Shown one piece after another: positions 1 to 15,125 of a stretch of 15,701 bases of DNA. The notes under the pieces were generated by a model that was not told the DNA's origin, did not search any database, and saw nothing but the letters and a program-made list of their open reading frames with translations. The stretch is from Mailhella sp. GTDB lineage: Bacteria > Desulfobacterota > Desulfovibrionia > Desulfovibrionales > Desulfovibrionaceae. The position numbers were made by a program, and so were the translations under genes. Positions within the stretch are counted from its first letter, which is position 1; every line of letters begins with the position of its first letter. The DNA lies in the NCBI GenBank assembly GCA_024404335.1, contig JAKSQA010000005.1, positions 1-15,701 of the forward strand. The letters are read 5' to 3'.

Positions 1-2501
1 TCGGAAATCGCGCCTGCGCCGCCGTGGATGATCTCGATGCGCACCTTTTCGGTGCTGAGCTTCCTGAGGGATTCCGTGATTGCTTCCAGAGAGCCCTGCA
101 CGTCTGCCTTGAGGACGACATTGAGGGCAAGTGTCTCGCGGGAATCGGCGCTCTGCTTGAGGAAGTTCTCAAGTGTCACTCTGGAGACCTTGGCGAGCTC
201 CTTCTCACGGAGCTTCGCGGCACGGGTCTCGGCAATGCGGCGGGCGGTCTTCTCGTCCTCAAGGCAGACGAATTCCTCGCCGGCCTCCGGGACGCCCTCG
301 AAGCCCTGGATCTCCACAGGCATGGAAGGTCCTGCCTCCTTGATCTTGCGGCCCTGGTCGTTGAAGAGCGCACGGACCCTGCCGGAGTACACGCCGCATA
401 CGAAGACGTCTCCCTGGTGGATGGTGCCTTCCTGTACGAGGACGGTGGCCACGGGGCCGCGGCCCTTGTCGAGCTTGGCTTCCACGACATGGCCGCGGGC
501 GGGCTTGTCGGGGTTCGCCTTCAGCTCAAGGATCTCGGCCTGGAGGGCGATGAGCTCGAGCAGGTCGTCGAGGCCTTTGCCCGTCTTGGCGGAGACCATG
601 CCGACCACGGTGTCGCCGCCCCAGTCCTCGGGCTGGAGCCCGAGCTCGGAGAGCTCGCGGAGCACGCGGTCGGGGTTGGCGGTTTCCTTATCGATCTTGT
701 TCACTGCGACCAGGATCGGCACGCCTGCGGCGCGCGAGTGGTTGATGGCTTCGCGGGTCTGCTCCATCACGCCGTCGTCAGCGGCGACGACGAGGACGAC
801 GAGGTCGGTGACCTGGGCGCCGCGGGCGCGCATCGCGGTGAACGCGGCATGGCCGGGCGTGTCGAGGAAGACGATGTCGCCGCGCTTGGTCCTGACATGG
901 TAGGCGCCGATGTGCTGGGTGATGCCGCCGGCTTCGCCGCTGGTGACGCTGGTCTTGCGGATGGCGTCGAGCAGAGAGGTCTTGCCGTGGTCGACATGGC
1001 CCATGATGGTGACGACGGGCGGACGAGGCTTGAGCATTTCTGGAGTGTCCTCGACGGCGGGGAGCAGGTAGTTCTCTTCGGAGAAGCCGACCTTTTCCAC
1101 TTCGTAGCCGAATTCGGCGGCCACGAGGGTGGCGGTGTCGATGTCGAGGGCGTTGTTGATGGTGGCCATGACGCCGAGGCCGAAGAGGACCTTGATCACG
1201 TCGCCGGACTTGATGCCCATCTGGTGGGCCATGTCGGCCACGCGGATGGATTCCTCCACGCGCAGCTTGCGCTTGGCGGCCTTCATCGGCTGCGTGGAGG
1301 CTGCGGGTGCGGAGTGCTGCTTCTTGGGCTTGTGGGAGCGCCTGGTGCGCACGACGCCGTCTTCATCGTCCATCATGTCGGGCATGGAGACCGCGGCGGC
1401 GGTGCGGCGGCGCGAGAAGTCCTCGTTCTCCTGGGAGAAGTCGGTCGTGTGGCGCGTCTTGTTGCGCTTCTTGCGGCTCTGCTCGTTATCCATGGGAGGC
1501 TGCTGGGCGAATCCGGCGCCGAAGGGGGCTCCTCCGGGGCGGGGGCCGGAAGGACGGGGGCCTCCGGGACGGGGCCCGGAAGGACGGCGGCTGTCGCGGT
1601 CCCTGTCGTCCGTGCCGCGTCCGTCACGCATGTCCCTGCGCATGCCGTCGCCGCGGGGGCGGTCGTCGCGGTTTCCGGGGCGGGATTCGCCGGGAGCCGC
1701 GGGGCGGACGATGCGGGCCTGGGCCGGATCGGGGCGGGAGATCACGCGCACGCGGGGCGTGGTGTCGGCAGGGGCCTGCGGGGCGGGCTTCCTGCGGTCG
1801 CCTTCATCGGAGGCGGGAGCATGCCTGCGTTCCTGTACCGGGGGCAGCAGGCTGGGCTGGGAAGAGCCTTCGGGATTGGCGGAGGCGACGGCGGACCTGC
1901 GGCCGCGGTCGCTGCGGGGCTTTTCCTCCGCTGCGGCGGGCTTCGCTTCGCGCCTGGCCTCGGGAGCGGCCTCGGGCTTCTTCTCCACAGGGGCGGCCTT
2001 CACTTCAGGCTTTGCCTCGGCGGGCTTTTCGGCCTTGGCGGCGGCAGGAGCCGCAGCCTTCGGCTCCGCAGCAGTCTTGACGGCGGGCCGCTTTTCAGCG
2101 GGCTCGACGATTTTTGCTGCGGCAGGGGCGGGCTTTGCCTCGGCGGGAGCGCCGGCAGGGCGCACGATGCGGGCGGCGGGCGTCGCAGGACGCACCGCCC
2201 TGGCCTTCTGGGGGGCCTTCGCTTCAGCGGGCGCCTTGTCTTCCGATGCGGCGGGTCTGGCTTCGGCAGCGGTGTTCTTCGGCTCGGCGGCAGCCGCGGG
2301 GGCGGCTTCCTTCTTCTCTTCAACCTTCGCTTCGGCAACAGGAGCGGCAGCAGCCGTTTCAGCGGGTGCCGGCCTGGAGCGGCGACGCACGATGACGTCT
2401 TTGCGGACAACTTCCACGGAGTTTTCCGACATATTCACCTTGACCTTGTCTGATTTTTCCCGGGAAACGGAAGCCTGGCCGTGATTCCTATCTCTGTCCA
2501 T
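1..2501 (-). CDS. infB: Translation initiation factor IF-2 (C-terminus off the window)
   Basis: IF-2 is the GTPase that brings initiator tRNA to the 30S subunit and promotes subunit joining. 833 codons are visible. Residues about 20-390 are a long low-complexity region rich in Ala, Pro, Lys, Glu and Arg. An IF2_N-type segment follows at about 400-455 ([20 protein letters not shown]). The GTPase domain shows G1 GHVDHGKT near residue 499, G3 DTPGH near 545 and G4 NKID near 600. The last visible residues ([10 protein letters not shown]) belong to the domain after the beta-barrel, so part of that domain and the C-terminal fMet-tRNA-binding domain are missing. The ATG at 2501 is preceded by AGGGAGA at good spacing. 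It overlaps the ylxR 3' end by 14 bp, which suggests translational coupling. It is the last visible gene of the rimP-nusA-ylxR-infB operon. The long open frames on the opposite strand are composition-driven shadows. Confidence 0.98.
1531..1586 (-). repeat. Two 30-bp-period tandem repeats inside infB
   Basis: Two near-identical copies start at 1531 and 1561 (plus-strand core CCTCCGGG, then GCCGGAAGGACG or CCCGGAAGGACG). On the minus strand they encode two copies of the decapeptide [10 protein letters not shown]. They lie in the disordered N-terminal region of IF-2, where repeat number is expected to vary between strains. Confidence 0.8.
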
Positions 2502-2739
2502 TTCCGTTCTCCCTGTGTGATCTGCGCTTGAAACGCCTTTCCGAAAACTTCGCCACGCATTCCGGCGAATCGCATACATACCAGCCTCGTCCGGGCTTCA
2601 CGCGCTTCGGATCGGCTTCCAGTCCGTTTCCGGTGCGGGCGGCATCGCCTGAGGCGGCGACAAACCGGGAAAGGGCGTTTCTGGAAAAGCGCTGCCTGCA
2701 TATCACGCACATGCGGGCAGGCTCATGCTTTTCCGCCAT
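2488..2739 (-). CDS. ylxR: YlxR family RNA-binding protein (DUF448)
   Basis: This is an 83-aa YlxR-family protein encoded between nusA and infB, the usual place for the family. Visible hallmarks are MCVICR (Cys11, Cys14), the signature GRGWYVC at residues 50-56, and a further CxxxxC at 56-61, followed by a basic tail. The family binds RNA; the Bacillus subtilis member (RnpM) has been reported to bind and modulate RNase P, but the role here is inferred. The start was placed at the ATG at 2739, 4 bp after the nusA stop, because the longer open frame upstream only re-reads nusA in another frame. The TAG stop lies 14 bp inside infB. A GAGGG stretch in the nusA 3' end is the likely ribosome-binding site, giving a tightly coupled nusA-ylxR-infB unit. 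Confidence 0.93.
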
Positions 2740-2743
2740 GATA

Positions 2744-4015
2744 CTACTCGCCCTCTTCCACGGCGGACGCTTCGTCCGGTTCCGTAACGGGGCTGAGGAA
2801 ATTGAGTGCCGCACGCAGGTCTGCGATGCGGTCGGCGCCGAGAGCCAGCTTTTCGGCCAGTTCGGCGTCGGCTGCCGAGCTGAGGTCGCCGAGGCTGCGG
2901 AATCCGGCTGCGACAAGCGCGTCGACGGAGATGTCGGCCACGCTTGCGACCTGCTCAAGGCCGCGGCCGATTCCCGAGCCTTCGCCCGAACGGGATTCGG
3001 AGAAGATGTCGATCTTCCATCCGAGGAGCTTCGCGGCGAGCTTGACGTTCTGGCCCTTGCGGCCGATCGCGTTCGTGAGCTGGTCGTCCGGCACGGTCAC
3101 TTCGAGAAGGTTGGCGCTCTCGTCGACGCTGATGCTGGAAACCACGGCAGGCGCGAGGGCGTTGCGGGCATAGGTGGCGATGTCGGCATTCCATACGACG
3201 ATGTCGATGCGCTCGCCGTGCAGTTCCTGCACGATGTTCTGTATGCGCGAACCGCGCACGCCGACGCATGCGCCGACGGGGTCGATGTCACGCTCGCGGG
3301 AGAGCACGGCCACTTTCGCGCGGGAGCCGGGATCGCGGGCCACGCCCATGATCTGCACGCTGCCGTCGTCGACTTCGGGCACCTCGCGGCGGAAGAGGGC
3401 CGCCATGTAGTCGCGGTGGGAGCGGGAGACGATGACCTGCGGGCCGCGTCCTTCACGGCGCACCTCGATGATGAGGGCCTGCACGCGGTCGTTGCGCTTG
3501 TAGTGCTCGCGGGGGATCTGCTCGTCGCGGGGGAGCAGGGCCTCCGTGCGGCCGAGGTTGACGACCCAGCCGCCCTTGTCGCGCCGCTGGACCATGCCGC
3601 TGACGATTTCGCCCACGCGGTCCTTGTACTCATTGTAGATGAGTTCCTGCTCGGCGTCGCGCATGCGCTGGATGATCACCTGCTTCGCCGACTGGGCCGC
3701 GATGCGCCCCAGGTCCTCCACCTTGAGGCGGAATCCCATCTCGTCGTCCAGCTGGATGGACGGGTCGTGCTGCCTGGCCTCCTCAAGGGAGATCTGGGTC
3801 AGCGGATCCTCCACCTCTTCGACGACGAACTTGAACTGGAACACCTCGATGTCGCCGGTGTCGTCGCTGTAGTGCACCTCGACGTCGAGGTCGTCGCCGT
3901 ACTTGCGGGTAACGGACGTACGTACCGCTTCCTCAAGCATGCCGATGAGCATATCGCGGTCAAAACCCTTGTCCTTGCTGATCTGCTCGATGCCTTTCTT
4001 CAGTTCGATGCTCAT
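2744..4015 (-). CDS. nusA: Transcription termination/antitermination factor NusA
   Basis: NusA (423 aa) binds RNA polymerase and nascent RNA and affects pausing, termination and antitermination. The N-terminal polymerase-binding domain (residues 1-125) begins with MSIELKKGIEQISKDKG. An S1 domain follows at about 135-200 (GEIVSGMVQRRDKGGWVVNL). Two KH domains come next: the first has its GVRG loop near residue 252 and the second its GRKG loop near 318. At about 350-405 there is one helix-hairpin-helix-like segment (VADISVDALVAAGFRSLGDL). It is shorter than the 495-aa E. coli protein, which carries two acidic C-terminal repeats; a short acidic tail (EASAVEEGE) ends this one. The ATG overlaps the rimP TGA in an ATGA junction, so the two are probably translationally coupled. 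NusA regulates its own operon in E. coli, which is relevant to the attenuator-like leader upstream. Confidence 0.98.
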   Translation of the reverse strand: MSIELKKGIEQISKDKGFDRDMLIGMLEEAVRTSVTRKYGDDLDVEVHYSDDTGDIEVFQFKFVVEEVEDPLTQISLEEARQHDPSIQLDDEMGFRLKVEDLGRIAAQSAKQVIIQRMRDAEQELIYNEYKDRVGEIVSGMVQRRDKGGWVVNLGRTEALLPRDEQIPREHYKRNDRVQALIIEVRREGRGPQVIVSRSHRDYMAALFRREVPEVDDGSVQIMGVARDPGSRAKVAVLSRERDIDPVGACVGVRGSRIQNIVQELHGERIDIVVWNADIATYARNALAPAVVSSISVDESANLLEVTVPDDQLTNAIGRKGQNVKLAAKLLGWKIDIFSESRSGEGSGIGRGLEQVASVADISVDALVAAGFRSLGDLSSAADAELAEKLALGADRIADLRAALNFLSPVTEPDEASAVEEGE

Positions 4016-4638
4016 GCCTGCTTACCTCCGCCTTTGCCGGAAGGCTTCGTGCCGTTTCTTCCGGATCCGGGCTTGATCGTCTCGGGGAAAATATGGATGA
4101 GGCGGGCCTTCTTGACCATGCCCCAGCTGATGGAAGCGTCCACGGGTACGGGCTTCTCCCCTTCGCGAGGGGCCGCAAGGACCTCCACGACGAAGGTGTC
4201 GCCGGAGACGGACTTGAGCGGCCCCTTGAAGCGCCTCCTGCCGGTGACGGCGGGGTGGGCATCGAGAAGCATGACGTCCACATCCCTTCCCACATACGCG
4301 GCCATCTGGCCCGCGTTGAAGAACATGCGGTCGAATCCCGGGGAGGAGACCTCGAGCACCCATGCGTCGGAGAAGACCTCGTCCACTTCGAGCGCCAGGC
4401 CCACCATACGGGAGATGTCGGCGCACTGGTCGACGGAAAACCCTTCGAGGATGCCGTCCTCGCCGGTTCCGGAATCTCCGGCCTCCGCCGCAGGGGCGTC
4501 GACATAGATGCGTACGACGGATCTTCCGCCGGCGACCATCTCAATGCCCCACAGCTGCAGGCCGAACGAAGCCGCTACGGGTTCCGCGGCTTCGCGGACC
4601 CTGCCTATGATCTGTTCGGGTGAAAGCCCTTTTCCCAT
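4012..4638 (-). CDS. rimP: Ribosome maturation factor RimP
   Basis: RimP (208 aa) is needed for 30S subunit maturation. The N-terminal alpha/beta domain includes LQLWGIEMVAGGRSVVRIYVD, then a short acidic insertion (EAGDSGTGEDG), then the family segment VDQCADISRMVGLALEVDE with VLEVSSPGFDR. The C-terminal Sm-like domain covers roughly residues 115-185, and a Gly/Lys-rich tail ends the protein. It is longer than typical RimP (about 150-160 aa) because of the insertion and the tail. Two starts are possible: GTG at 4644 and ATG at 4638. ATG 4638 is preferred because AAGG sits 8 nt upstream of it. It is the first gene of the operon, preceded by a promoter and an attenuator-like hairpin. Confidence 0.95.
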   Translation of the reverse strand: MGKGLSPEQIIGRVREAAEPVAASFGLQLWGIEMVAGGRSVVRIYVDAPAAEAGDSGTGEDGILEGFSVDQCADISRMVGLALEVDEVFSDAWVLEVSSPGFDRMFFNAGQMAAYVGRDVDVMLLDAHPAVTGRRRFKGPLKSVSGDTFVVEVLAAPREGEKPVPVDASISWGMVKKARLIHIFPETIKPGSGRNGTKPSGKGGGKQA

Positions 4639-4754
4639 AGTCACTACCTTATATATAACAAAAAAGGGAGGCCGTTACTCAGGCCACCCTATCCAACCGC
4701 CTTCCGCGGTGCACCAGGTGTAGCGAAAGCCTGCATGCAGGCCTTCTACTGCGT
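4639..4754 (-). promoter_or_regulatory. Structured 5' leader of the rimP-nusA-ylxR-infB operon
   Basis: The predicted transcript leader is about 115 nt. It can form a long hairpin at 4749-4720 (GUAG...CUAC outer stem, a CG bulge, then an 8-bp stem closing a CAUG loop, with one G-U pair that exists only in minus-strand RNA). A smaller hairpin lies at 4710-4696 (ACCGC, loop GGAAG, GCGGU). The intrinsic terminator at 4689-4660 completes it. A possible alternative pairing joins AGGCC of the first hairpin to GGCCU of the terminator 3' arm. No known riboswitch class or tRNA fold was recognised. Transcripts stopping at the terminator would be about 95 nt long. Confidence 0.5.
4660..4689 (-). terminator. 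Intrinsic terminator in the rimP leader (attenuator candidate)
   Basis: On the minus strand GGGTGGCC and GGCCTCCC form an 8-position stem with one U-U mismatch and an 8-nt loop, followed directly by six T residues. It lies between the promoter at 4789-4761 and the rimP ribosome-binding site, about 20 nt before the start codon. It therefore terminates transcripts that would otherwise enter rimP, rather than ending an upstream gene. Confidence 0.75.
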
Positions 4755-4760
4755 ACGGGT

Positions 4761-4789
4761 CTTGTACCTGCCGGGCATTCCTTTGTCAA
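4761..4789 (-). promoter_or_regulatory. Sigma70-type promoter of the rimP operon
   Basis: On the minus strand a perfect -35 TTGACA (4789-4784) is separated by 17 bp from a -10-like TACAAG (4766-4761, four of six consensus positions). The predicted start is near 4754. An AAAAAATTTTTT tract lies at 4816-4827, somewhat upstream of where an UP element would sit. Confidence 0.65.
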
Positions 4790-5070
4790 GGGATGCGGTT
4801 TCCCCCGCCGGCGGCAAAAAATTTTTTCAAAGGCCGCGAAGGCCGTGAATGCGGCGCGATTACGGACTTCGCTCCGGAACTCCTGCCTGATAACTTTTTT
4901 TTCCCGGAAAAGTGGCCTTGACCGTGGAAAAGCCTCAGGCTAATCTCAGTCCTCCCTGAGGGGCCATGCCGCTCCGGGGAGCGGGAAAACAGCAGAAGAC
5001 TGTTTTTGAGCTTATAATAGTTCGATTTTTTTCAGTGTATTACGGTGTTATCGAGGAGGGTATAGGGTAT
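4790..5070. promoter_or_regulatory. Divergent intergenic region between rimP promoter and nrdD
   Basis: No gene is visible in these 281 bp. They hold the A6T6 tract (4816-4827), two nrdD promoter candidates, a GC-rich perfect hairpin (CCGCTC, loop CGGG, GAGCGG, about 4970-4985) and an inverted repeat AAAACAG-N7-CTGTTTT (4986-5006) just upstream of the -10 at 5013. The last could be an operator. No sequence matching the NrdR box consensus was found. Confidence 0.45.
4918..5018 (+). promoter_or_regulatory. Candidate nrdD promoters
   Basis: Candidate one has -35 TTGACC at 4918-4923, a 17-bp spacer and a -10-like TAATCT at 4941-4946. Candidate two has a perfect TATAAT at 5013-5018 but no recognisable -35, and the AAAACAG-N7-CTGTTTT repeat sits where the -35 would be, so it may be regulator-dependent. 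Which one is used cannot be decided from sequence. Confidence 0.4.
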
Positions 5071-7371
5071 ATGGAACCTGCAGGCATTCGCTTCATTAAA
5101 AAGCGTGACTCCCGTGTCGTGCCCTTCGATATCACCAAAATCGACGAGGCCATCTTCCGGGCCGCGCGGACGCAGGGCGGCACCGACAGGACGATGTCGC
5201 GCGCCCTGGCCGAGCAGGTAGCCTCCATGCTCGCCGCAGAGCGGAACGAGACGCCCGACGTCGAGCATGTGCAGGATGTGGTCGAGAAGGTCCTCATTGA
5301 GAACGGCCATGCCCGCACCGCAAAGGCGTACATCCTCTACCGCAACGAGCGCACGCGCGTGCGGGAGATGAAGACCCGCCTGATGAACACCCTCCGCGAC
5401 CTTTCGTTCACCGACGCGAAGGATCTCGACCTCAAGCGCGAGAACGCCAACATCGACGGCGACACGCCCATGGGCACCATGCTCCGCTACGGAAGCGAGG
5501 CCGCCAAGGCGTTCTACAAGAACTACCTCCTGTCGCCTGAGCACAGCCGCGCACATGAGGAAGGCGATATCCATATCCATGACCTGGATTTCCTTTCCCT
5601 CACCACGACCTGCTGCCAGATAGATATCAAGAAGCTCTTCAACGGCGGCTTCAATACGGGCCACGGCTTCCTGCGCGAGCCCAACAGCATCCAGTGCGCC
5701 AGCGCCCTTGCCTGCATCGCCATCCAGTCGAACCAGAACGACCAGCACGGCGGCCAGAGCATACCGAATTTCGAATACGGCCTCGCCCCCGGCGTCGCAC
5801 GCAGCTTCATCAAGAACATCGACCTCGCCCTCGACATGCGCGATGCCGACGAGGACTTCCGCAGCTCCGTGAAGGCCGCCCTCAGCGGCTTCGCCTTCCC
5901 TACGGGGGAATACGCATCCTTCAGGTCGATACTGGGCGAGGAGGGCCTTGCCTTCGTCCGCAGCCAGCTCGTGAAGGGCATTGCCGCCGAGGAGGCCGAC
6001 CGTGTCGTGGCGAAGGCCGTGGCCCGCACCGACAAGGATACCTACCAGGCCATGGAAGGCCTCCTGCACAACCTGAACACCATGCACAGCCGTGCCGGCG
6101 CGCAGGTGCCCTTCAGCTCCATCAACTATGGAACCGACACCTCGGCCGAAGGCCGCATGGTCATCAGGAACACCCTCCTCGCGGAGGATGCCGGCCTCGG
6201 CAACGGCGAGACCCCCATATTCCCCATCCATATCTTCAAGGTCCGCGAGGGCTACAGCTTCAATCCCGAGGACCCGAACTACGACCTCTTCAAGCTGGCC
6301 TGCCGCGTTTCCGCGAAGCGCCTCTTCCCGAACTTCTCCTTCATGGAGGCGCCGATCAACAGGGAGTATCTGCAGGGGGACGATCCCGACCATGAAGTGG
6401 CGTACATGGGCTGCCGCACCCGCGTCATGGCGAACAGGTATGACAAGAGCCGCGAGACCACGTTCGGCCGCGGGAACCTGTCGTTCACGACCATCAACCT
6501 CCCCCGCCTGGGCCTGAAGCACAGGGGGGACATCGAAGGCTTCTTCGAGGACCTGAACAAGGTCATCGACCTCGTGTTCAGCCAGCTCCTCGAACGCTTC
6601 GAAATACAGAGCCACAAGCGCTGCCGCAACTATCCCTTCCTCATGGGACAGGGAATCTGGCTTGATTCCGACAACCTCACCTCGTTCGACGAGGTCGGCG
6701 AGATACTCAAGCACGGCACCCTCACTACCGGCTTCATCGGCCTGGCGGAATGCCTCAAGGCCCTTCTCGGCGTCCATCACGGCGAATCCGCGGAGGCGCA
6801 GGAGCTCGGCCTCCGCATCGTGCGCACCATACGGGAGCGCTCCGATGCCCAGGGCGAGAAGACGGGCCTCAACTTCACCGTCATAGCCACGCCCGCCGAA
6901 GGCCTTGCCGGGCGCTTCGTCAAGTACGACCGCAAGCTCTTCGGCAGCATCCCCGGCATCACCGACAGGGACTACTACACCAACTCGTTCCATATCCCGG
7001 TGTATTTCCCCATCACGGCCTTCAACAAGATCCGTCTCGAAGCCCCCTACCATGCGTTCACCAACGGCGGCCACATCAGCTATGTGGAAGTCGACGGCGA
7101 CCCGCTCAACAACCTCCAGGCCTTCGAGGACATCGTCAAGGCCATGAAGGAGATGGGCATCGGCTACGGTTCGATCAACCACCCCGTCGACCGCGACCCC
7201 GTATGCGGATATACGGGCATCATCGGCGACGTATGCCCCCGCTGCGGAAGACGCGACGGCGAAGGCATCCCCCTTTCCACTTTGAAACGACTTAAGGGAT
7301 ATGTATGCGACAGCCGCTCCAGCGACGAGCGCAGCGAATCCCGTGACAAAATAGCCAATATCAAACTGTAA
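5071..7371 (+). CDS. nrdD: Anaerobic (class III) ribonucleoside-triphosphate reductase, large part lacking the canonical glycyl-radical loop
   Basis: NrdD reduces ribonucleoside triphosphates to deoxynucleotides without oxygen, using a glycyl radical made by the activase NrdG. This 766-aa ORF has an N-terminal ATP-cone (about residues 5-95). Conserved catalytic-barrel segments follow: EGDIHIHDLDF, TTCCQID (Cys181/182), NDQHGGQSIPNFEYG, FSSINYG, TPIFPIHIFKV and YMGCRTRV (Cys448, the likely thiyl cysteine). Near the end, VCGYTG...CPRCG (about 708-727) looks like the zinc-site region, but only three cysteines are present, with Asp where a fourth would be expected. After GRRDGEG (residue 732) the usual glycyl-radical region is absent. 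The tail is instead a 34-residue stretch (KRLKGYV, then DSRSSDERSESRDK) ending in TAA. The radical motif occurs in the next ORF. ATG 5071 follows GAGGAGGG at long spacing. No nrdG lies next to it. Confidence 0.93.
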   Translation: MEPAGIRFIKKRDSRVVPFDITKIDEAIFRAARTQGGTDRTMSRALAEQVASMLAAERNETPDVEHVQDVVEKVLIENGHARTAKAYILYRNERTRVREMKTRLMNTLRDLSFTDAKDLDLKRENANIDGDTPMGTMLRYGSEAAKAFYKNYLLSPEHSRAHEEGDIHIHDLDFLSLTTTCCQIDIKKLFNGGFNTGHGFLREPNSIQCASALACIAIQSNQNDQHGGQSIPNFEYGLAPGVARSFIKNIDLALDMRDADEDFRSSVKAALSGFAFPTGEYASFRSILGEEGLAFVRSQLVKGIAAEEADRVVAKAVARTDKDTYQAMEGLLHNLNTMHSRAGAQVPFSSINYGTDTSAEGRMVIRNTLLAEDAGLGNGETPIFPIHIFKVREGYSFNPEDPNYDLFKLACRVSAKRLFPNFSFMEAPINREYLQGDDPDHEVAYMGCRTRVMANRYDKSRETTFGRGNLSFTTINLPRLGLKHRGDIEGFFEDLNKVIDLVFSQLLERFEIQSHKRCRNYPFLMGQGIWLDSDNLTSFDEVGEILKHGTLTTGFIGLAECLKALLGVHHGESAEAQELGLRIVRTIRERSDAQGEKTGLNFTVIATPAEGLAGRFVKYDRKLFGSIPGITDRDYYTNSFHIPVYFPITAFNKIRLEAPYHAFTNGGHISYVEVDGDPLNNLQAFEDIVKAMKEMGIGYGSINHPVDRDPVCGYTGIIGDVCPRCGRRDGEGIPLSTLKRLKGYVCDSRSSDERSESRDKIANIKL

Positions 7372-7384
7372 GGAGCTTCGTCCA

Positions 7385-7573
7385 ATGATCCACTGCAAAT
7401 CAGAAATGGCGGCTGCCGACGCAGACCAGATCCTCATCGGCTCCAACGTCAAGTTCGAGCGCATCCGCCGCATCACCGGCTACCTCGTCGGCACCCTCGA
7501 CCGCTTCAACAACGGCAAGGCCGCGGAAGAGCGCGAGCGCGTGAAGCACTGCTCCATGGATGCGTGGAAGTAG
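7385..7573 (+). CDS. Separate glycyl-radical domain of NrdD (62 aa)
   Basis: Residues 22-55 match the C-terminal glycyl-radical segment of class III ribonucleotide reductases: FERIRRITGYLVGTL (radical Gly32 in RITGYL), then DRFNNGKAAEERERVKH. In family members known to me this follows the CPxCG zinc motif in the same chain. Here it lies in another frame, 13 nt after the stop of the large ORF. Its ATG has a strong Shine-Dalgarno, AAGGAG at 7370-7375 with 9-nt spacing, which overlaps the upstream TAA and implies coupled re-initiation. Residues 1-21 (MIHCKSEMAAADADQILIGS) have no recognised homology. By analogy with GrcA/YfiD, the stand-alone radical domain that repairs pyruvate formate-lyase, it may associate with the large part to rebuild the enzyme. 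Alternatives are +1 frameshifting (frames are both open at 7355-7371), a frameshift mutation or a sequencing error. A terminator follows. Confidence 0.8.
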   Translation: MIHCKSEMAAADADQILIGSNVKFERIRRITGYLVGTLDRFNNGKAAEERERVKHCSMDAWK

Positions 7574-7597
7574 CGCTTCTTCCCATACGGCATCAGG

Positions 7598-7636
7598 AAA
7601 AGAGCCCTTCGGATTCCGGAGGGCTCTTTTCTTCTT
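7598..7636 (+). terminator. Terminator of nrdD
   Basis: A stem of about 15 bp (AAAAGAGCCC at 7598-7607 pairing with GGGCTCTTTT at 7621-7630, extended inward by TTCGG/CCGGA with one G-T) closes an ATT loop. It is followed by CTTCTTC and starts 25 nt after the 62-aa ORF. The A tract on the other side would also allow some function on the minus strand. Confidence 0.85.
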
Positions 7637-7775
7637 CACGGACCCCGTACATATTCTGTCTGCAGACATACCGTATCCGGCCGTGTGTGCCGAGGATGGA
7701 GCCTGGGGCCGGGTGCTCACTTTGGACATCGGATTTCGGCCCCCGGAGTCGCCGCCTTTCCGATCGGCAGATACG

Positions 7776-7811
7776 CAGAAGGGGCGCCGGCAATTGCCGG
7801 CGCCCCTTCTG
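7776..7811. terminator. 36-bp perfect palindrome between convergent genes
   Basis: The arms CAGAAGGGGCGCCGGCAA (7776-7793) and its exact reverse complement (7794-7811) abut with no unpaired base. It lies 22 bp beyond the minus-strand aminotransferase stop, where a terminator is expected. However, neither strand has a T-run after the stem (CTTCTG only), so it is an atypical, possibly bidirectional terminator or an RNA-stabilising hairpin. Confidence 0.55.
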
Positions 7812-7832
7812 TCGGATCATGACAGGATGATG

Positions 7833-8975
7833 CTAGAGGGCGTTCCTGTAGGCTTCGAGGGCTGCCTCGAGATAGGCGCCCTTCGGCTGCTCGGGGAGGC
7901 TCATCGCAAGGGCGTGGAGGCCTGCGGTGATGTCGCCCCAGTCCACCCAGCCCATGTGGGCCACACGGATGACGCTGTCCTTGATGTCGGCCTGGCCCGT
8001 GGTCAGGATGACGCCGAATTCCTTGTAGGCCTTCGCCACGATGGGGGCGGCGGAAACGCCCTTGGGGAGGGCCATGCTCGTCAGGCCCCAGGTGTAGCGG
8101 CCTTCTTCCTTGATGAAGAGCTCCTGGCCCATGGCCGTGAGGCCGGCGCGGGTCATCTGGGTGAGGGCCCACTGCTTCCTGTAGACGTTGTCGAGGCCGA
8201 ACTCGAAGATCATCTTGAGGGCCTCGTTCAGGCCGACGATCAGGCTGATGGGCGAGGTGTAGTGCGTCTGGCGTTCGGCGCACTTCTTGCGTTCGGCGAC
8301 GAGGTCGAAGTAGTAGCACTGCTGGGATATCTTCTCCGCCTTTTCCCAGGCACGGGGGGAAAGCGCGATGAAGGACATTCCGGGGGGGAGCATGAGGCCC
8401 TTCTGGGAGCCGGTGAGCAGGCAGTCGATGCCCCATTCGTCCATGAAGACGGGCGAGATGGAGATGGCGGATATGCCGTCGGCTATCATGAGGACGTCAC
8501 GTTCCCTGGTGATGGCCGAGACTTCCTTCACAGGATGGAGGGCGCCGGTGGAGGTTTCGGAAATCTGCATGAAGACGCCGCAGATCGAGGGATCGTCATC
8601 AAGGGCGGCGCGGATCTCCTCAGGATCGAAGGAGGAGCCGTAGGGCTTGCGGATGATGACGGGGTCGAGGCCCCGGCTCTTGACGATGTCCACCCAGCGT
8701 TCGCCGAAGTAGCCGGCCGTCGCGACAAGGACACGCTCCCCGGGGACGAAGAGATTGAAGGCCGCCGCCGTCATGGCTCCTGTTCCGGAGGAGGAGAGGG
8801 GGATGACGGGCATTTCCGTGGCGAAGAGCTTTTTCAGCATGTCTTCGTTCTCGGCCATGATCTGCTTGAACACGTCCTTCCTGTGGTGGGGGATGGGTTC
8901 CGCCATGGCAAGGCGGATGCGGTCAGGTATGGGCGTGGGGCCGGGGGTGAGCATGCGGGTGGCCTGAATGGACAT
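7833..8975 (-). CDS. PLP-dependent class V aminotransferase (alanine-glyoxylate / serine-pyruvate type)
   Basis: This is a 380-aa fold-type I PLP enzyme of the class V group that includes alanine-glyoxylate, serine-glyoxylate and serine-pyruvate aminotransferases. The N-terminus MLTPGPTPIPDRIRLAM and the following PIPHHRKDVF are typical. SSSGTGAM (about 62-69) is the phosphate-binding segment, ADGISAI supplies the cofactor-contacting Asp, and TGSQKGLMLPPG carries Lys192 as the Schiff-base lysine. RVAHMGWVDWGDI closes the C-terminal domain. ATG 8975 is preferred because GAGG lies 6 nt upstream; longer in-frame starts at 8987 and 9086 have no such site. Related sulfate-reducer proteins have been annotated as a soluble hydrogenase 42-kDa subunit, an old name; the motifs here support a transaminase. 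The substrate cannot be read from sequence. It is probably transcribed alone from the AT-rich region upstream. Confidence 0.92.
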   Translation of the reverse strand: MSIQATRMLTPGPTPIPDRIRLAMAEPIPHHRKDVFKQIMAENEDMLKKLFATEMPVIPLSSSGTGAMTAAAFNLFVPGERVLVATAGYFGERWVDIVKSRGLDPVIIRKPYGSSFDPEEIRAALDDDPSICGVFMQISETSTGALHPVKEVSAITRERDVLMIADGISAISISPVFMDEWGIDCLLTGSQKGLMLPPGMSFIALSPRAWEKAEKISQQCYYFDLVAERKKCAERQTHYTSPISLIVGLNEALKMIFEFGLDNVYRKQWALTQMTRAGLTAMGQELFIKEEGRYTWGLTSMALPKGVSAAPIVAKAYKEFGVILTTGQADIKDSVIRVAHMGWVDWGDITAGLHALAMSLPEQPKGAYLEAALEAYRNAL

Positions 8976-9129
8976 GGGGGACCTCATGGATTCGGAATGA
9001 ATGTGGCCGTATGGGAGAACCTGCGGCCTGATGCCCTTCCGAAGGGGGATGGCAGGCTGCCGAAGTCGGCGGAACGGCAACGGCAACGTATCGGAAATCG
9101 CTTCGATTCGCCAGGGCGGCGACGTGTAT

Positions 9130-9201
9130 GTGGTACGAAAATTGAAAGATGACAGTATGTTATATGATAATAAAAATTGTTTTCACACAGGAATGTGAAA
9201 A
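9130..9201 (-). promoter_or_regulatory. AT-rich promoter/operator region upstream of the aminotransferase gene
   Basis: A perfect inverted repeat TTTTCACA-N6-TGTGAAAA spans 9180-9201. On the minus strand a -10-like TATAAC lies downstream of it in the run ATTATCATATAAC, and the repeat would cover the -35 position, as an operator would. The half-sites are those of CRP/FNR/Rex-type boxes but in everted order (TCACA before TGTGA), so the regulator is unknown. A plus-strand TTGAAA (9142-9147)/GATAAT (9166-9171) pair is also present and would run straight into the terminator at 9199. Confidence 0.45.
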
Positions 9202-9225
9202 AGGCGGAGCGACGCTCCGCCTTTT
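9199..9225 (-). terminator. Terminator of the RlmI-like gene's transcription unit
   Basis: A perfect 12-bp stem (AAAAGGCGGAGC, loop GAC, GCTCCGCCTTTT) followed on the minus strand by TTTTTCAC. It faces the minus-strand gene ending at 9418 but is now about 190 bp away from it because of the intervening miniature element. Its A/T flanks could let it work in both directions. It overlaps the TTTTCACA-N6-TGTGAAAA repeat by three bases. Confidence 0.85.
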
Positions 9226-9240
9226 CGTATCCGAACATGG

Positions 9241-9421
9241 CTAGGGAAGCACTGAAAAAAGCGCTTCCCGGCGTCCATGCACGCATGGACGCCCGCAGCC
9301 TGCGAATAGGGAAAATTCACTTTTCCCGTTAAATGAGCAGGTTGGCGTGCCTTTCCCGAAACGGCGGAAGCCGGTTCGGGCATCGAGCTGATTTATTCTG
9401 AATAAATCAGCGGTTCCCTAG
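9241..9421. mobile_element. IS5-like miniature inverted-repeat element (MITE) with CTAG target duplication
   Basis: A 173-bp element (9245-9417) is flanked on both sides by CTAG (9241-9244 and 9418-9421). The left end reads GGAAGCACTGA; the right end read inward reads GGAACCGCTGA (9 of 11 identical). A 4-bp CTAG/YTAR-type target and ends starting GGAA are features known for the IS5 group. There is no transposase. The interior is a chain of hairpins: 9245-9268, 9271-9292 (perfect 10-bp arms), 9309-9327, 9355-9380 and 9387-9411 (perfect 11-bp arms, GCTGATTTATT). Removing it and one CTAG puts the methyltransferase stop about 15 bp before the terminator hairpin, the expected distance. The 63-66 aa open frames inside look non-coding. 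The IS5 assignment is inference from ends and target only. Confidence 0.75.
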
Positions 9422-10602
9422 CAGTCGGGGAACTGGAAGAGAAAAGCCTTGAGATAGGCCGTTTCGGGCATGGCGGGATGTATGGGGTGGTCGGGCCCCT
9501 GGAATCCCTGGAAGAGGAGCCGCGCGGGGCGGCGGCGCCTGCCCGCTGCCCTGGTCACGATGGAGCGCAGCGCCTCGGCTTCGAGGTGATGCGAGCATGA
9601 GCAGGTCATGAGCAGGCCGCCCGGCCTGACGAGGTCCATGCCGAGCTCGTTGACCCTCGCGTAGGCCTCGAGGCCCTGCTTCGCATCCTTCTTCCTTTTG
9701 ATGAAGGCCGGAGGATCGAGGCAGACGATGTCGAACGTGCGGCCCTCGCGCCTCAGCGATGCGAGGAGGGAGAGCGCATCACCCTGCAGCTCTTCGGCCT
9801 CTGCGCCTGCGGCCTCGGCGTTCCTCCGTGCGAAGGCGAGCGCCTGGGCCGAGGCGTCCATGAAGCCCACGGAACCCGCGCCGCGTCGTGCGGCGCAGGC
9901 TGCGCATGCGCCCGGTGAGCAGACGGAGTCGAGCACGGAGGCCCCTTTGGTGACGAAGGGGGCTATGGCCGCCCGGTTGAGGCGCTGATCGTAGAACCAT
10001 CCTGTTTTCTGCCCGGAGGCGAGGGGGACGGTGTACCGCATGCCGTTCTCCTCGATGGAGATCGCCTCGGGCACGGGGCCGAGCGGGGTCTTCTGATGCC
10101 TGTCGAGGCCTTCCAGCGTGCGCGAGGCGATGTCGTTGTCGAGGAGGACCGTCTCGGGGTGCAGGAGGTCGCAGAGGACGGAAAGGAGGTCGTCGGTCCG
10201 GGAGTCCATGCCTGCGGTGGTGATCTGGCATACCGCGTGGCTTCCATGCCTGTCGGCGATGAGGCCGGGAAGCAGGTCGCCTTCTCCATGGCACAGGCGG
10301 TAGAACGGCCTGTCGAACATCCTCTCCCTCAGGGCGAGTGCGTCGGTGAGGCGGCGGCGTATCAGGTCGGGGCCGAGGGCCTCGCCTTCCTTCCTGCTCA
10401 CCATGCGTACGGCGATGAGGGATGCCGGATTCACATAGCCGGTGCCGAGGATGCGGCCGCCGCTGTCTGCGACGAGGACGTCCTGCCCCGGCGCGAACGA
10501 TGTCAGCGGGGAGCGCTTCACATCGATCTCGTTGCTGAACACCCACATGTGGCCGACACGCAGGCGCCTGTCCTCACCCTTTCTGAGAAAGATGGTATCC
10601 AT
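9418..10602 (-). CDS. rlmI: Class I SAM-dependent rRNA methyltransferase, RlmI family
   Basis: The protein is 394 aa and resembles 23S rRNA (cytosine-5) methyltransferase RlmI. An N-terminal PUA-type RNA-binding domain (about 1-75) starts IFLRKGEDRRLRVGHMWVFSNEI and contains GRILGTGYVNPASLIAVRM. The linker carries DLLPGLIADRHG, and GQKTGWFYDQRLNR precedes the Rossmann domain. The family motif LDPPAFIKRKKD lies near residue 296 and SCSHHL follows. SAM motif I (VLDSVCSPGACAACAARRGA, near 222) is divergent and unusually Cys-rich compared with the more usual VLDxFCYxGGF-like form, but D, G and spacing are kept. The C-terminus (ETAYLKAFLFQF) is intact. The TAG stop lies within the CTAG target of the miniature element. 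ATG 10602 follows GGAG. It is the last gene of a three-gene unit. The exact target nucleotide is inferred from family membership. Confidence 0.88.
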   Translation of the reverse strand: MDTIFLRKGEDRRLRVGHMWVFSNEIDVKRSPLTSFAPGQDVLVADSGGRILGTGYVNPASLIAVRMVSRKEGEALGPDLIRRRLTDALALRERMFDRPFYRLCHGEGDLLPGLIADRHGSHAVCQITTAGMDSRTDDLLSVLCDLLHPETVLLDNDIASRTLEGLDRHQKTPLGPVPEAISIEENGMRYTVPLASGQKTGWFYDQRLNRAAIAPFVTKGASVLDSVCSPGACAACAARRGAGSVGFMDASAQALAFARRNAEAAGAEAEELQGDALSLLASLRREGRTFDIVCLDPPAFIKRKKDAKQGLEAYARVNELGMDLVRPGGLLMTCSCSHHLEAEALRSIVTRAAGRRRRPARLLFQGFQGPDHPIHPAMPETAYLKAFLFQFPDC

Positions 10603-10616
10603 GGGATCTCCGGAGA

Positions 10617-10991
10617 TCAGAAGCTCTTAAGTACGAAAATCGCGAACCAGAGCCCGGCGTTGAGCGCCAGCATGAGGAACACGGCGGCGGAGGCCATGTC
10701 CTTGGCGTGCTTCACGGCGATGTTGTAGTCCCTGGTGATGAGGTTCAGCGTTTCCTCGAGGGCCGTGTTGAGGAGCTCGGCGGCCATGACGAGGAACCAG
10801 GCTCCCAGGGCCGCAAGCCAGGTGGTGAAGGGCTTGCCGAATGCGGCGAGCATCACGATGAGGACGGCCAGGATGGCGGCTTCCTGCCGGAAGGCCAGGC
10901 TGAGCCTCAGGCCGGTCCGGAGGCCGGCGAGGGAGTAGCCTGCCGCCTTGAAGACATGGAAGAAGCCTTCCCTGAGTTTTTCCCTGTTCAT
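10617..10991 (-). CDS. dgkA: Diacylglycerol kinase (DgkA family, integral membrane)
   Basis: This 124-aa membrane kinase phosphorylates diacylglycerol (or undecaprenol in some bacteria) in the inner membrane, recycling lipid. Three hydrophobic segments lie at about 38-52, 58-72 and 100-122. The catalytic segment AAELLNTALEETLNL gives Glu72, Asn75 and Glu79, and VKHAKDMASAAV gives Lys97 and Asp98. These match the known E. coli positions (Glu69, Asn72, Glu76, Lys94, Asp95) with a constant offset of three. The start was set at ATG 10991; the longer open frame upstream only re-reads the preceding gene. It overlaps that gene's TGA in an ATGA junction and is followed 14 bp later by the rlmI-like gene. 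Confidence 0.95.
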   Translation of the reverse strand: MNREKLREGFFHVFKAAGYSLAGLRTGLRLSLAFRQEAAILAVLIVMLAAFGKPFTTWLAALGAWFLVMAAELLNTALEETLNLITRDYNIAVKHAKDMASAAVFLMLALNAGLWFAIFVLKSF

Positions 10992-11551
10992 GCCTGCGCC
11001 TTCGGGCCGCCGCCGACTTCGATGGTGCGGAACTGGTTCGTCTGGCCGTTGGCCTTGGGGCATTCCTTCCTCAGGTAGCAGATGTCGCATGCTCCGTGGA
11101 AGGGGAACGGCGTGAGGACGCTGTATTTGGGAAGCATGGAATGGGTGGCTTCCTGGTAGTCGAGGCCTTCTGCGGCGAGGGCGTCGCAGAGCGAGGCCGT
11201 GGGATGGGGGGCGGGGGCGCATCCGGCATCCTCGACTTCGGGCATGAGCTGGTACACGGCGCACTGCACCATGGTCTGCGCGAGGGCGCTCAGCCGGTAT
11301 CCGTATTCCGAGGAGACCTTCCATTCACGGTCGATCTCCTCCTCGACGGCGGTGTCGAGCCAGAGCGCGAGGTAGCGCCCCTTGCCGGTTTCCAGCTTGA
11401 GGGCATGCAGGGAGGGCAGCCAGAGGTCCCACTTGCCGGCGAGCTCCTCGAATACGCTGCCGCCCAGGCGTTTTTCCGAGAGAAGTCCGAGCAGGAGTTC
11501 GAAATCGAAGACCGGGCTGACTTCCAGAGTTTCCTTGGTATAGCTTTTCAT
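10988..11551 (-). CDS. Uncharacterised protein with C-terminal CxxCx5C motif
   Basis: I do not recognise this 187-aa protein. It begins MKSYTKETLEVSPVFDFELL and is mostly soluble, with a central DLWLPSLHALKLETGKGRYLALWLD and an alpha-helical SALAQTMVQCAVYQLMPEVE. The C-terminal part has HGACDICYLRKECPKANG: cysteines with C-x2-C-x5-C spacing, as seen in the Fe-S motif of Cas4/AddB-type proteins. Two more cysteines lie at AGCAPAP and SLCDAL. No PD-(D/E)xK nuclease core was seen, so the resemblance is only in spacing and suggests metal or Fe-S binding at most. ATG 11551 follows AAAGGA at good spacing. Its TGA overlaps the dgkA ATG, so the two are probably co-translated. A TTGACA at 11670-11665 could be the -35, but the matching -10 (TCCAAG) is weak. 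Confidence 0.8.
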   Translation of the reverse strand: MKSYTKETLEVSPVFDFELLLGLLSEKRLGGSVFEELAGKWDLWLPSLHALKLETGKGRYLALWLDTAVEEEIDREWKVSSEYGYRLSALAQTMVQCAVYQLMPEVEDAGCAPAPHPTASLCDALAAEGLDYQEATHSMLPKYSVLTPFPFHGACDICYLRKECPKANGQTNQFRTIEVGGGPKAQA

Positions 11552-11710
11552 GAAGGATTCCTTTGGGGAATGGATGTCATGGGAGCAAAGAGTTTGCCCT
11601 TGAGCGGCTTTTCCGTCAAGTGCCGCGGGCGCGGGCCTTTACTTGGAGCCCCAGTCAGGATAGATGTCAACGGCAGGCCGCCCCCACAATGAAGCGGCAA
11701 CGGAGGAATC

Positions 11711-12088
11711 GTGAGCCAGATCAAGTATCCCAGCAGGGTGCGCTATGAATATTCCCAGGATCCCGACTGCAGACTCCAGTACACGCACGGCGTGTGGGGA
11801 GGAATAAACCCGCAGGGCGAGATCGAGGTCAATTTCTATGTGGAAAGCGACAAGCTTCCCATGTTTTCCGAGCGCCCCGTCGAACCCGACGGCCGCTTCG
11901 GTGACGAGGAGGTGCCCTTCGATGAGGAGGAGCGCGTGATCTCGCGTCATATCCACACCCGCGTCCTTTTCAGCTATGATACGGCGCTTGCGCTGAAGCG
12001 CTGGCTCGAAGAGAAGATCGACACGCTCGAACTTGAGGAAAGCTCCACATACAGCCCCGACGATCCGGGATTCGAGGTCCAGCAGTAA
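11711..12088 (+). CDS. Uncharacterised 125-aa protein encoded upstream of darP
   Basis: I do not recognise a named family with confidence. The protein starts from GTG 11711 with a strong GGAGG five nt upstream. The N-terminal half is beta-rich (VRYEYSQDPDCRLQYTHGVW, then GGINPQGEIEVNFYVESD). The C-terminal half (HIHTRVLFSYDTALALKRWLEEKIDTLE) looks like a strand followed by a long helix, then an acidic tail. The order 'beta segment with P-rich loop, then a VxxSxxTAxxLxxxLxexI-type helix' loosely resembles DUF3467-like proteins, but this is weak. It contains many acidic residues and no signal peptide or membrane segment. Its TAA shares one base with the ATG of darP (TAATG), so co-translation with a ribosome-associated factor is likely. 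Confidence 0.8.
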   Translation: MSQIKYPSRVRYEYSQDPDCRLQYTHGVWGGINPQGEIEVNFYVESDKLPMFSERPVEPDGRFGDEEVPFDEEERVISRHIHTRVLFSYDTALALKRWLEEKIDTLELEESSTYSPDDPGFEVQQ

Positions 12089-12393
12089 TGGCACGCCGCA
12101 CGCGCTATCAGATCGGAGGGGACGATGAGGACCTCAGGCCGAGCCGTTCGCAGAAGAAGCGTGACAGCACCGCCCTCCAGGAGGCGGGAGAGAAGCTCGT
12201 CAGGCTGCCCGCGTCGAAAAGGGCCCGGCTCCCTCTTCCCGAGGACCTGAAGAAGGGCATTGAGGATTACGACCGTCTTTCCGGCTATGAGGCCAGGCGG
12301 CGTCAGCTGCAGTTCATAGGAAGGCTCATGCGTGAGGCGCAGGAGGAGGGGACTCTCCAGCCCGTCTTTGACGCCCTGGCGCTCATGGAATGA
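12088..12393 (+). CDS. darP: Ribosome-associated protein DarP/YjgA (DUF615), short form
   Basis: This 101-aa protein matches the YjgA/DUF615 family, a factor found with late pre-50S ribosomal particles in E. coli. The N-terminus is charged (RSQKKRDSTALQEAGEKLVRL). LPASKRARLPLPEDLKKGIEDY corresponds to the family region that precedes the hallmark RRRQLQFIGRLMREA (about residues 70-84). The C-terminus is short (QPVFDALALME). E. coli YjgA is 183 aa, so this lacks much of the C-terminal half; short forms may be normal outside gamma-proteobacteria. It overlaps the upstream gene by one base and is followed closely by the tRNA-Ala promoter. No terminator separates it from the tRNA, so read-through into the tRNA is possible. 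Confidence 0.85.
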   Translation: MARRTRYQIGGDDEDLRPSRSQKKRDSTALQEAGEKLVRLPASKRARLPLPEDLKKGIEDYDRLSGYEARRRQLQFIGRLMREAQEEGTLQPVFDALALME

Positions 12394-12402
12394 AAATTCC
12401 TC

Positions 12403-12431
12403 TTGACTTGCTCTGCGGATTTCTGTAGAAG
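12403..12431 (+). promoter_or_regulatory. Promoter of tRNA-Ala
   Basis: A -35 TTGACT (12403-12408, five of six consensus positions), a 17-bp spacer and a -10-like TAGAAG (12426-12431) place the transcription start near 12438, six bases before the mature tRNA 5' end. Confidence 0.65.
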
Positions 12432-12443
12432 GATTCACGCAAC

Positions 12444-12519
<76 letters not shown>

Positions 12520-12526
12520 GAATTTC

Positions 12527-12553
12527 GGCCGCCTTTACAGGGCGGCCTTTTTT
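12527..12553 (+). terminator. Terminator of tRNA-Ala
   Basis: A 7-bp GC stem (GGCCGCC, 7-nt loop TTTACAG, GGCGGCC) is followed by six T residues, 8 bp after the CCA end. Confidence 0.93.
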
Positions 12554-12610
12554 GTTCTCGACGCGGATATTCCTCCACGGCCTCGGAGAATGCGCGTGAC
12601 GGAGGCAGGC

Positions 12611-13471
12611 ATGGATGAAATCGATTTCAGAAGGGGTGTGCTGCCCTGCGTGCTCGCGGCGCTGGCCTGGGCCCTCCTCGGCCCGGTTTCGCGCGTATGC
12701 TTTGCCGAGGGGATGTCGGTGGCTTCGGTCTCCTTCTGGAGGGTGGCGGTTTCGGGCCTGTGCTTCCTCATCCATGCCGGCGTGCTGAAGGAGCTCAGGC
12801 CGAGCCGGAGGGACTTCGGGCTGATAGCACTGTTCGGCATGCTGGATGTCCCTCTTTTCATGCTCACGTTCCAGGTATCCATCCTACTGAGCGGCGGAGC
12901 GGTCGCCGTCATCCTTCTGTTCACGGCTCCGGCGTGGGTGGCCGTCTTTTCAAGGCTGCTTTTCCATGAGGGCCTCGGAGCCGCGAAGCTCGCCGCCATG
13001 GGGATAGCCATGGCAGGGACGGGGCTGGTATGCCTTTCCGGGGGAAGCCTCGGGGAGGAGGTCTCATGGATCGGGCTCGGCAGCGGGCTTCTCTCGGGAT
13101 TCCTGTATGCCATGCAGTTCCCCTTCCTTTCCTGGTGGGGAAGGAAGTACTCCACGGCCTCGATGTTCGCCATGATGTTCCTTCCCGCGGCGGCCGTGCT
13201 GCTCCCGTTCATCGACTTCGCGATGCCCACGGCAAAGGGGACCGCGGCCATAGGCGTGCTGAGCATCATCTCGACCTATGTGGCCTACTTCCTTTTCGGA
13301 ATCTCGCTGCGCCGGCTTACGCCCGTCCAGGCGGCCATCATAGGCAATGTGGAGCCTGTGGCCGGCCTGCTGCTCTCATGGTGGCTATGGAATGAGGATT
13401 TCACGGCCGTGGGATGGGTCGGATGCGCCCTCGTCCTGGTTTCCGTGCTGATTCTCTCCGTGCGCCGATAG
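12611..13471 (+). CDS. EamA-family (DMT superfamily) transporter
   Basis: The 286-aa inner-membrane protein has about ten hydrophobic segments arranged as two EamA repeats. Repeat one (about 10-140) starts with LPCVLAALAWALLGPVSRV and ends with LAAMGIAMAGTGLVCL. Repeat two (about 150-286) includes FLYAMQFPFLSWWGRKYS and the family signature LRRLTPVQAAIIGNVEPVAG, followed by LLSWWLWNEDF and a final helix. EamA members export metabolites such as amino acids; the substrate here is unknown. ATG 12611 is preferred over the in-frame ATG at 12590 because GGAGG lies just upstream of it. The last 87 bp overlap the tail of the convergent queH gene on the other strand. The final membrane helix is encoded there, so the EamA frame is probably the constrained one. 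Confidence 0.9.
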   Translation: MDEIDFRRGVLPCVLAALAWALLGPVSRVCFAEGMSVASVSFWRVAVSGLCFLIHAGVLKELRPSRRDFGLIALFGMLDVPLFMLTFQVSILLSGGAVAVILLFTAPAWVAVFSRLLFHEGLGAAKLAAMGIAMAGTGLVCLSGGSLGEEVSWIGLGSGLLSGFLYAMQFPFLSWWGRKYSTASMFAMMFLPAAAVLLPFIDFAMPTAKGTAAIGVLSIISTYVAYFLFGISLRRLTPVQAAIIGNVEPVAGLLLSWWLWNEDFTAVGWVGCALVLVSVLILSVRR

Positions 13472-14158: not shown

Positions 14159-14323
14159 AGGAGCTCCGTTTTCCGTGATGGGCTGTGCAGGCGATGCTGC
14201 GGGAATTGCCGGAATATCCGTCTGCCGGGGCAGCGGGATGGCCTGTGTGGGGCTGCCGGCCGAAGGAGGCCGCGGGAATCGTGCCGGTCTTCGGCCCGGA
14301 GGGGTTGCCGCTGCAGCCCGGTG

Positions 14324-15064: not shown

Positions 15065-15082
15065 GTGGCTGCTCCCTGCCGA

Positions 15083-15109: not shown

Positions 15110-15125
15110 GCGTTCGTATGGGATC

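Follow-up and report, generated by a model that had tools for sequence, protein, structure and literature searches.

A 15,701-nucleotide stretch of DNA from Mailhella sp. (GenBank assembly GCA_024404335.1, contig JAKSQA010000005.1, positions 1 to 15,701 of the forward strand), referred to as the window throughout, very probably encodes a class III (anaerobic) ribonucleotide reductase that consists of two proteins, one of them a detachable radical subunit that could be replaced after oxygen damage. Class III reductases are known as single-chain glycyl-radical enzymes and are destroyed by oxygen, which cuts the chain at the radical glycine. Judging from sequence comparisons, this oxygen-sensitive radical tip is a separate small protein in these gut bacteria, and because relatives carry further tip genes in an oxygen-defence operon and in prophages, the protein may be a swappable spare part. 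The two-gene nature of the enzyme is well supported by these comparisons; a role in repair is what we infer from the additional copies.

The large gene, nrdD, extends on the plus strand from the ATG at position 5071 to the TAA at positions 7369–7371 (5071..7371) and encodes a protein of 766 amino acids (aa) with an ATP-cone, the NRDD barrel and a zinc site. A second in-frame start, ATG 4966, which would yield an 801-aa version, is also open. The alignments of most same-genus relatives begin at residues 36–42 of the 801-aa open reading frame (ORF), residue 36 being encoded by ATG 5071; the exceptions begin at residues 20, 21 and 65. The ATP-cone domain (PF03477; 5092..5355, plus strand) corresponds to residues 43–130 of the 801-aa ORF. 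Pfam family NRDD (PF13597) covers the large ORF from model positions 1 to 544 of 562 (E 8e-185), and the model NF005497/PRK07111 matches above its cut-off. Cys448 of the 766-aa protein (codon 6412..6414, plus strand), which lies within YMGCRTR, is invariant in a 45-row alignment and aligns with the GCRTR motif of Prevotella copri NrdD (PDB 8p23); we take it to be the thiyl-radical cysteine. Equally invariant are Cys712, Cys722 and Cys725 (7204..7245, plus strand), presumably the zinc-binding site. The large ORF provides the NRDD barrel and the GCR thiyl cysteine typical of a class III NrdD, and the C-terminal glycyl-radical loop, which such enzymes carry in the same chain, is located on a separate ORF. 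By sequence, membership in class III appears to hold for the large and small proteins as a pair only.

The missing motif resides on a 62-aa ORF (7385..7573, plus strand; ATG 7385 to TAG 7571–7573), which includes the loop VKFERIRRITGYLVGTLDRFNNGKAAEERERVKH and is predicted to encode a stand-alone glycyl-radical subunit. Its product matches the C-terminal end of PF13597 (model positions 530–562, E 1e-7, 31.5 bits as compared to a cut-off of 26.2). Gly32 (codon 7478..7480, plus strand) is the predicted radical glycine by homology, its RITGYLVG motif being aligned with the RITGYLVG loop of 8p23. Relative to the latter chain, the large piece covers residues 6–705 and the small piece residues 707–739, so that the cut falls after the zinc site and before the radical loop. 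The two genes are separated by 13 nucleotides (nt), and the stop codon of the large gene overlaps a Shine-Dalgarno-like TAAGGAG of the small gene (7369..7375, plus strand). Of the 15 closest loci in the genus, 13 share this overlap; the exceptions are L016, which reads TAGGAG, and L017, which carries TAAGGAG after the stop. The initial annotation of the window had already placed the missing motif on a 62-codon ORF with its own ATG and a Shine-Dalgarno-like site overlapping the upstream TAA, and these features were borne out. A removable intervening element, as in genes split by introns or inteins, was not detected: the Rfam scan near the junction returned no relevant intron or recoding RNA, no repeats indicating an insertion surround the junction, the gap is short, the small gene has its own start, and the frame varies in relatives. 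The junction DNA gave short partial matches in four plasmid records. Stand-alone loop genes are short, and databases annotate them either as 'anaerobic ribonucleoside-triphosphate reductase' or as 'hypothetical protein'.

A search of 41 kin genomes with the large protein yielded matches in 37, including 17 of the 19 genomes of the genus, that of the window among them; two genus genomes gave no match to the large gene. The pair is split in all 17, with the stand-alone loop gene following the large gene in each, and an uninterrupted NrdD, which the initial annotation had named as a counter-argument should it occur in close relatives, was found in none of these loci. Likewise, no second nrdD, intact or otherwise, was found in the window's own genome, which is 69% complete. 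The gap between the genes measures 10–15 nt in the 15 closest same-genus loci. Pooled Nei-Gojobori estimates from 105 pairs of 15 loci (three more divergent loci were left out) gave dN/dS values of 0.128 for the small gene and 0.032 for its 34-aa core, and of 0.105 for the body of the large gene and 0.162 for its new tail. Both pieces are under purifying selection, neither having lost it, and the proposal of a two-piece NrdD is well supported.

The large protein had originally been thought to stop right after CPRCGRRDGEG without a radical loop. The absence of the loop was confirmed; the end point needs correction, as a conserved tail of 34 aa continues beyond GRRDGEG. The entire segment after CPRC (GRRDGEGIPLSTLKRLKGYVCDSRSSDERSESRDKIANIKL; 7246..7368, plus strand), which takes the place of the radical loop, is conserved in the genus (dN/dS 0.16). 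The radical loop is absent from 105 of the best 120 large homologues, P0154 being counted as having a (different) loop. A 'GE' at most 7 aa from CxxC occurs in 98 of 112 distinct split tails as compared to 2 of 20 fused tails, and the large subunit appears to have adapted to the split.

The split recurs beyond the genus, in Bacilli, Clostridia, Succinivibrionaceae and Desulfovibrio. A scan of a genome collection confirmed at least 591 relatives. Loci were read for the best 80 of them, a set biased to split forms, as the query was the stand-alone protein. An adjacent split pair is present in at least 59 of the 80 loci, whose titles include Mailhella, Desulfovibrio, Succinivibrio, Butyricicoccus, Massiliimalia, Gemmiger, Mogibacterium and many metagenome-assembled genomes of Bacilli, and in these 59 the large protein ends 18–52 aa after CxxC. 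By zinc-site pattern, the rest comprised 12 loci with a loop and no large gene in view, eight fused loci and one that was unreadable; tblastn on the 12 located the large gene in L196 and L217 and revealed L238 to be a fusion. Within the family sample, the small protein had a match in 62 of 199 genomes, 61 of which hold short open frames only and one (G113) a fused form only; with weak matches counted, the copy number ranges from one (39 genomes) to six (one genome). In Oscillospirales, the order of Massiliimalia, 119 of 295 genomes had a match and, among the matches listed, 50 carry stand-alone forms only (frames up to 200 aa), 41 fused forms only (500 aa or more) and 23 both, with five unclear. 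Succinivibrionaceae matched in 52 of 56 genomes (39 with stand-alone frames, 13 with long frames only), and the class of a Bacilli genome in 85 of 296, with both forms present. Eight small genomes (G603, G681, G647, G770, G654, G722, G594 and G702) show an in-frame TGA and frames of 170–177 aa; these matches are perhaps NrdD in which TGA encodes tryptophan. A quick tree of 72 large subunits, i.e. the rows out of 123 that passed a motif filter, contains nine split/fused changes, seven of which are forced by well-supported branches; it is rough owing to long branches and possibly chimeric rows. Four metagenomic rows (P0053-P0055 and P0079) look chimeric, joined within the near-identical loop, which calls for caution with assembly-based counts, and given these apparent chimeras single metagenomic rows were not relied on. 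Another observation concerns Eggerthella phage EL753P1 (L303:647-3505), whose NrdD contains an intein-like insertion and ends without a radical loop; it was rejected as a working pair, since the downstream loop motif, which is unannotated, spans two frames.

Additional copies of the small gene were found in several settings. In 12 of the 16 sampled genomes of the genus, a second small gene is part of an operon with the order desulfoferrodoxin, double rubredoxin, small gene, rubredoxin and flavodiiron ROO on one strand (L065:4284-6711 and 11 loci like it). Ten of the 12 loci show the desulfoferrodoxin gene; in the other two the contig begins inside the operon. Pfam confirmed desulfoferrodoxin, the double rubredoxin and an ODP-flavodoxin protein at L065. 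The order of the operon was read from the double rubredoxin in its correct frame, the rubredoxin downstream being recognised by its similarity to this protein, as the marker for the single rubredoxin was out of frame. Desulfoferrodoxin, rubredoxin and flavodiiron proteins are scavengers of oxygen and superoxide. The oxygen-operon copy is established for the relatives, not for the window's organism. Upstream of desulfoferrodoxin, an A+T-rich near-palindrome is present at about L065:4205-4230, which we presume might be a PerR/Fur-type site.

Another setting is phage-related. Five other copies are preceded by a tail-fibre-assembly-like gene, and at four of them (L063, L067, L071 and L275) an integrase marker lies within about 1 kb. 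This left 25 unlinked copies, for 20 of which one neighbour each was scanned, the other five being left out. Nine of ten neighbours matched a phage family in the PHROGs scan, six of these with a structural or replication function, and the Pfam scan of the ten others returned four GH108/PG-binding proteins, which we take to be endolysin-type, one terminase, one GGDEF protein and four without a match. One copy (L064) is located near an IS200-type transposase. In IMG/VR, 301 viral-contig stretches encode a relative of the small protein; among the best 80 of these 301 (L083-L162), 78 are stand-alone by pattern and two were unread, the stand-alone frames with the NrdD loop measuring 44–188 aa, and a large NrdD lies within the fetched DNA in only three. 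The stand-alone loop gene is possibly a common auxiliary gene of the phages of anaerobes. Phage-borne radical domains have a precedent in phage T4, which encodes a spare part of pyruvate formate-lyase according to the accessible text of Andorfer et al. 2021 (PMC8683613).

A longer variant of the small protein occurs where NrdD is intact. At 13 loci (L304-L316) from genomes that also encode a fused NrdD, a stand-alone protein of roughly 86–110 aa carries the NrdD loop behind an N-terminal module, which is alike by eye in 12 of the 13 and differs in L315. A search with one such protein retrieved 4961 relatives, and the consensus of 66 aligned sequences reads MxxVNVTGGELSQxEIDAY...DGDYVDIxY. Only the loop half matches known families, and it is this half alone that matches 8p23 by sequence. 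The AlphaFold model of an 89-aa member is of modest confidence (pLDDT 72.6, pTM 0.40), and a PDB search with it gave no match below E 0.17. Of the forms seen, the longer one comes nearest to a GrcA for NrdD and is, by its sequence, a candidate for a new GrcA-like family.

PF02867, which is common to class I and class II reductases, was detected in 3 of 19 genus genomes. Among the 11 genomes of high quality (at least 90% complete, at most 5% contamination) it is present in two, in one of which (G011) no NrdD was found, and the other nine, all with split NrdD and one a single contig, gave no PF02867 match. With neither a class I nor a class II reductase detected in these nine, the split enzyme is probably essential in the genus. 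NrdG scored above cut-off in 13 of 19 genus genomes, a fourteenth reaching 125.7 as compared to the required 126.1, and outside the genus 17 of the 21 genomes in which the pair is linked have the order nrdD-small-nrdG on one strand.

These data suggest a division of labour in which the large subunit, which ends soon after the zinc site, would provide the allosteric, substrate and thiyl-cysteine sites, and the 62-aa subunit would provide only the C-terminal glycyl-radical loop and helix. The small subunit may dock into the active site of the large one, where NrdG would install the radical on Gly32, from which it would pass to Cys448. If oxygen then cut the small chain at this glycine, a fresh one of 62 aa could take its place without the large enzyme being remade; the additional genes in the oxygen-defence operon and in prophages would be a source of such replacements. 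That the radical glycine must adjoin the thiyl cysteine, that NrdG installs the radical and that oxygen cuts the chain at this site is described in the consulted parts of PMC3019208 and PMC11226230. A detachable radical domain is plausible because, according to the available portion of the latter report, the radical domain of P. copri NrdD is mobile, complete order being seen in just a single monomer of the ATP form. Replaceability had been proposed in the initial annotation; the oxygen-operon and prophage copies in relatives support it, and it keeps the standing of an interpretation.

Could the split be a frameshift, either as an assembly or sequencing error or as programmed frameshifting or bypassing by which a single full-length NrdD is made? 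The pieces are 13 nt apart and jointly make a complete NrdD, as would be expected. However, the frame offset between them takes all three values among relatives (0 in three, 1 in two and 2 in 10 of the 15 closest same-genus loci; 27, 22 and 10 times for the three offsets among the 59 split loci), which speaks for two genes, and the conservation of the split across species with differing offsets makes an indel error untenable. Moreover, the distance from stop to motif varies from 52 to 387 nt across the 59 loci, unlinked copies of the small gene exist, and RNA folding of the junction is not better than that of shuffles (z 0.74), leaving this explanation with a negligible probability. Only slightly better placed, and still very improbable, is the idea that the large subunit either works through a glycine of its own tail or is dead, the small gene being a relic. 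The tail sequence KRLKGYVCDSR does slightly resemble the radical loop, which is why the Pfam match extends to position 544; its KGY is near the expected position, the tail is under selection, and a loose [RK]x(1-3)GY[LVIM] match occurs in 36 of the 112 distinct split tails. Yet the other 76 have no such match (e.g. RHEAEGVSVERVKNASLTCCGR and CGRRDGEGIPMERALRLRASFCDH), and because many split large subunits lack G-Y there, we judge that KGYV is probably not the radical site. Against this idea also speak the small core, which is the most constrained part (dN/dS 0.03), and the finding that no class I or II reductase was detected in 16 of 19 genus genomes. The small proteins might instead be regulators or inhibitors, e.g. 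competitors for NrdG, a role that stand-alone copies in genomes with a fused NrdD (23 of the 119 matched Oscillospirales genomes, among the matches listed) would fit. The radical loop is strongly conserved, however, and next to the large gene of split pairs no loop other than that of the small protein was found, so that we regard such a role as improbable.

A more serious contender, which we nevertheless consider rather unlikely, accepts the two-gene enzyme and regards the split as neutral, a product of gene fission or constructive neutral evolution unrelated to oxygen or repair. Single copies are common (one short frame in 39 of the 62 matched family genomes), and the seven to nine or so switches between split and fused forms on the quick tree are what fission and fusion might give. 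Placement in the oxygen-defence operon in 12 genus genomes and repeated occurrence in phages are, however, hard to explain without a benefit of extra subunits. Several observations count against a replaceable radical subunit in the form proposed here. Among the Oscillospirales matches listed, 41 of 119 genomes are fused only and do without the stand-alone form; in Succinivibrionaceae, 14 of 15 fetched loci have no marker at all beside the copy, those for oxygen defence included (the rubredoxin marker was misframed); and the window's own genome, at 69% completeness, yielded neither an NrdG above cut-off nor desulfoferrodoxin, the latter absence being uninformative at this completeness. Structure prediction of the pair, which had been recommended at the outset, was run as an AlphaFold model of the artificially joined chains and left the small piece unplaced (pLDDT 27–38), so that docking receives no structural support here. 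For the broader version of the replaceable subunit, in which one copy of an interchangeable radical cartridge accompanies nrdD and another resides in the oxygen-defence operon, phage copies sustain the host reductase for phage DNA synthesis, and lineages with intact NrdD use the longer repair form, we see about an even chance.

Split NrdD is a new variant of class III reductase, and its biology is probably that of a spare part. With P. copri NrdD (8p23) and T4 NrdD (1h78) the pair shares ATP-cone, barrel, GCR cysteine, zinc-site region and RITGYLVG loop, and nrdG co-occurs in most relatives; unlike in single-chain NrdD, the radical loop is a separate gene product and a new tail closes the large subunit. 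YfiD/GrcA of Escherichia coli and Y06I of phage T4, the spare parts of pyruvate formate-lyase that replace its oxygen-cut radical site, are likewise stand-alone glycyl-radical domains and can also be phage-borne. The 62-aa protein is such a stand-alone domain as well; it is not filed as a GrcA member because it matches PF13597 and not PF01228, the Gly_radical family of pyruvate formate-lyase type. In contrast to YfiD and Y06I, it carries the NrdD loop and is an obligate partner in split genomes, since the large chain there has no loop of its own. The 62-aa form has about 20 residues before the loop, as opposed to the separate N-terminal module of the longer form. The split class II reductase NrdJa/NrdJb also distributes a catalytic reductase over two genes, but belongs to a different class, and NrdJb holds C-terminal zinc-finger and IscU-like domains, not a radical source, according to the accessible part of PMC9669993. 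The portion of PMC3653736 that we consulted describes phage nrdD genes broken up by introns, inteins or fragmentation; these are individual phage cases, whereas in the present one no intron turned up and the position of the split is shared across bacterial lineages. As far as the available text of Andorfer et al. 2021 goes, only YfiD and Y06I are validated spare parts, both for pyruvate formate-lyase, and spare parts for other enzymes are considered possible (PMC8683613). Our literature search, which left most subscription papers outside, found no description of a stand-alone NrdD radical subunit.

If the cartridge interpretation is true, it would establish a spare-part system for a glycyl-radical enzyme beyond pyruvate formate-lyase and a two-chain class III reductase, one in which experimenters could freely swap, label or leave out the radical subunit. 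It might also explain how obligate anaerobes resume DNA synthesis once they have been exposed to oxygen. The natural two-gene enzymes, the oxygen-operon copy and the phage copies represent a large and testable set of spare-part candidates for ribonucleotide reductase.

Downstream of the small gene, a weak terminator-like hairpin with a T-rich tail is located at 7606..7633 (plus strand), one of two sites found as compared to 2.6 expected by chance. A further long hairpin at 7777-7812 (minus strand GGGGCGCCGGCAATTGCCGGCGCCCC), with a sub-threshold Rfam match only and not listed by the simple terminator scan, lies downstream of a minus-strand aminotransferase gene (PF00266) and is perhaps a terminator.

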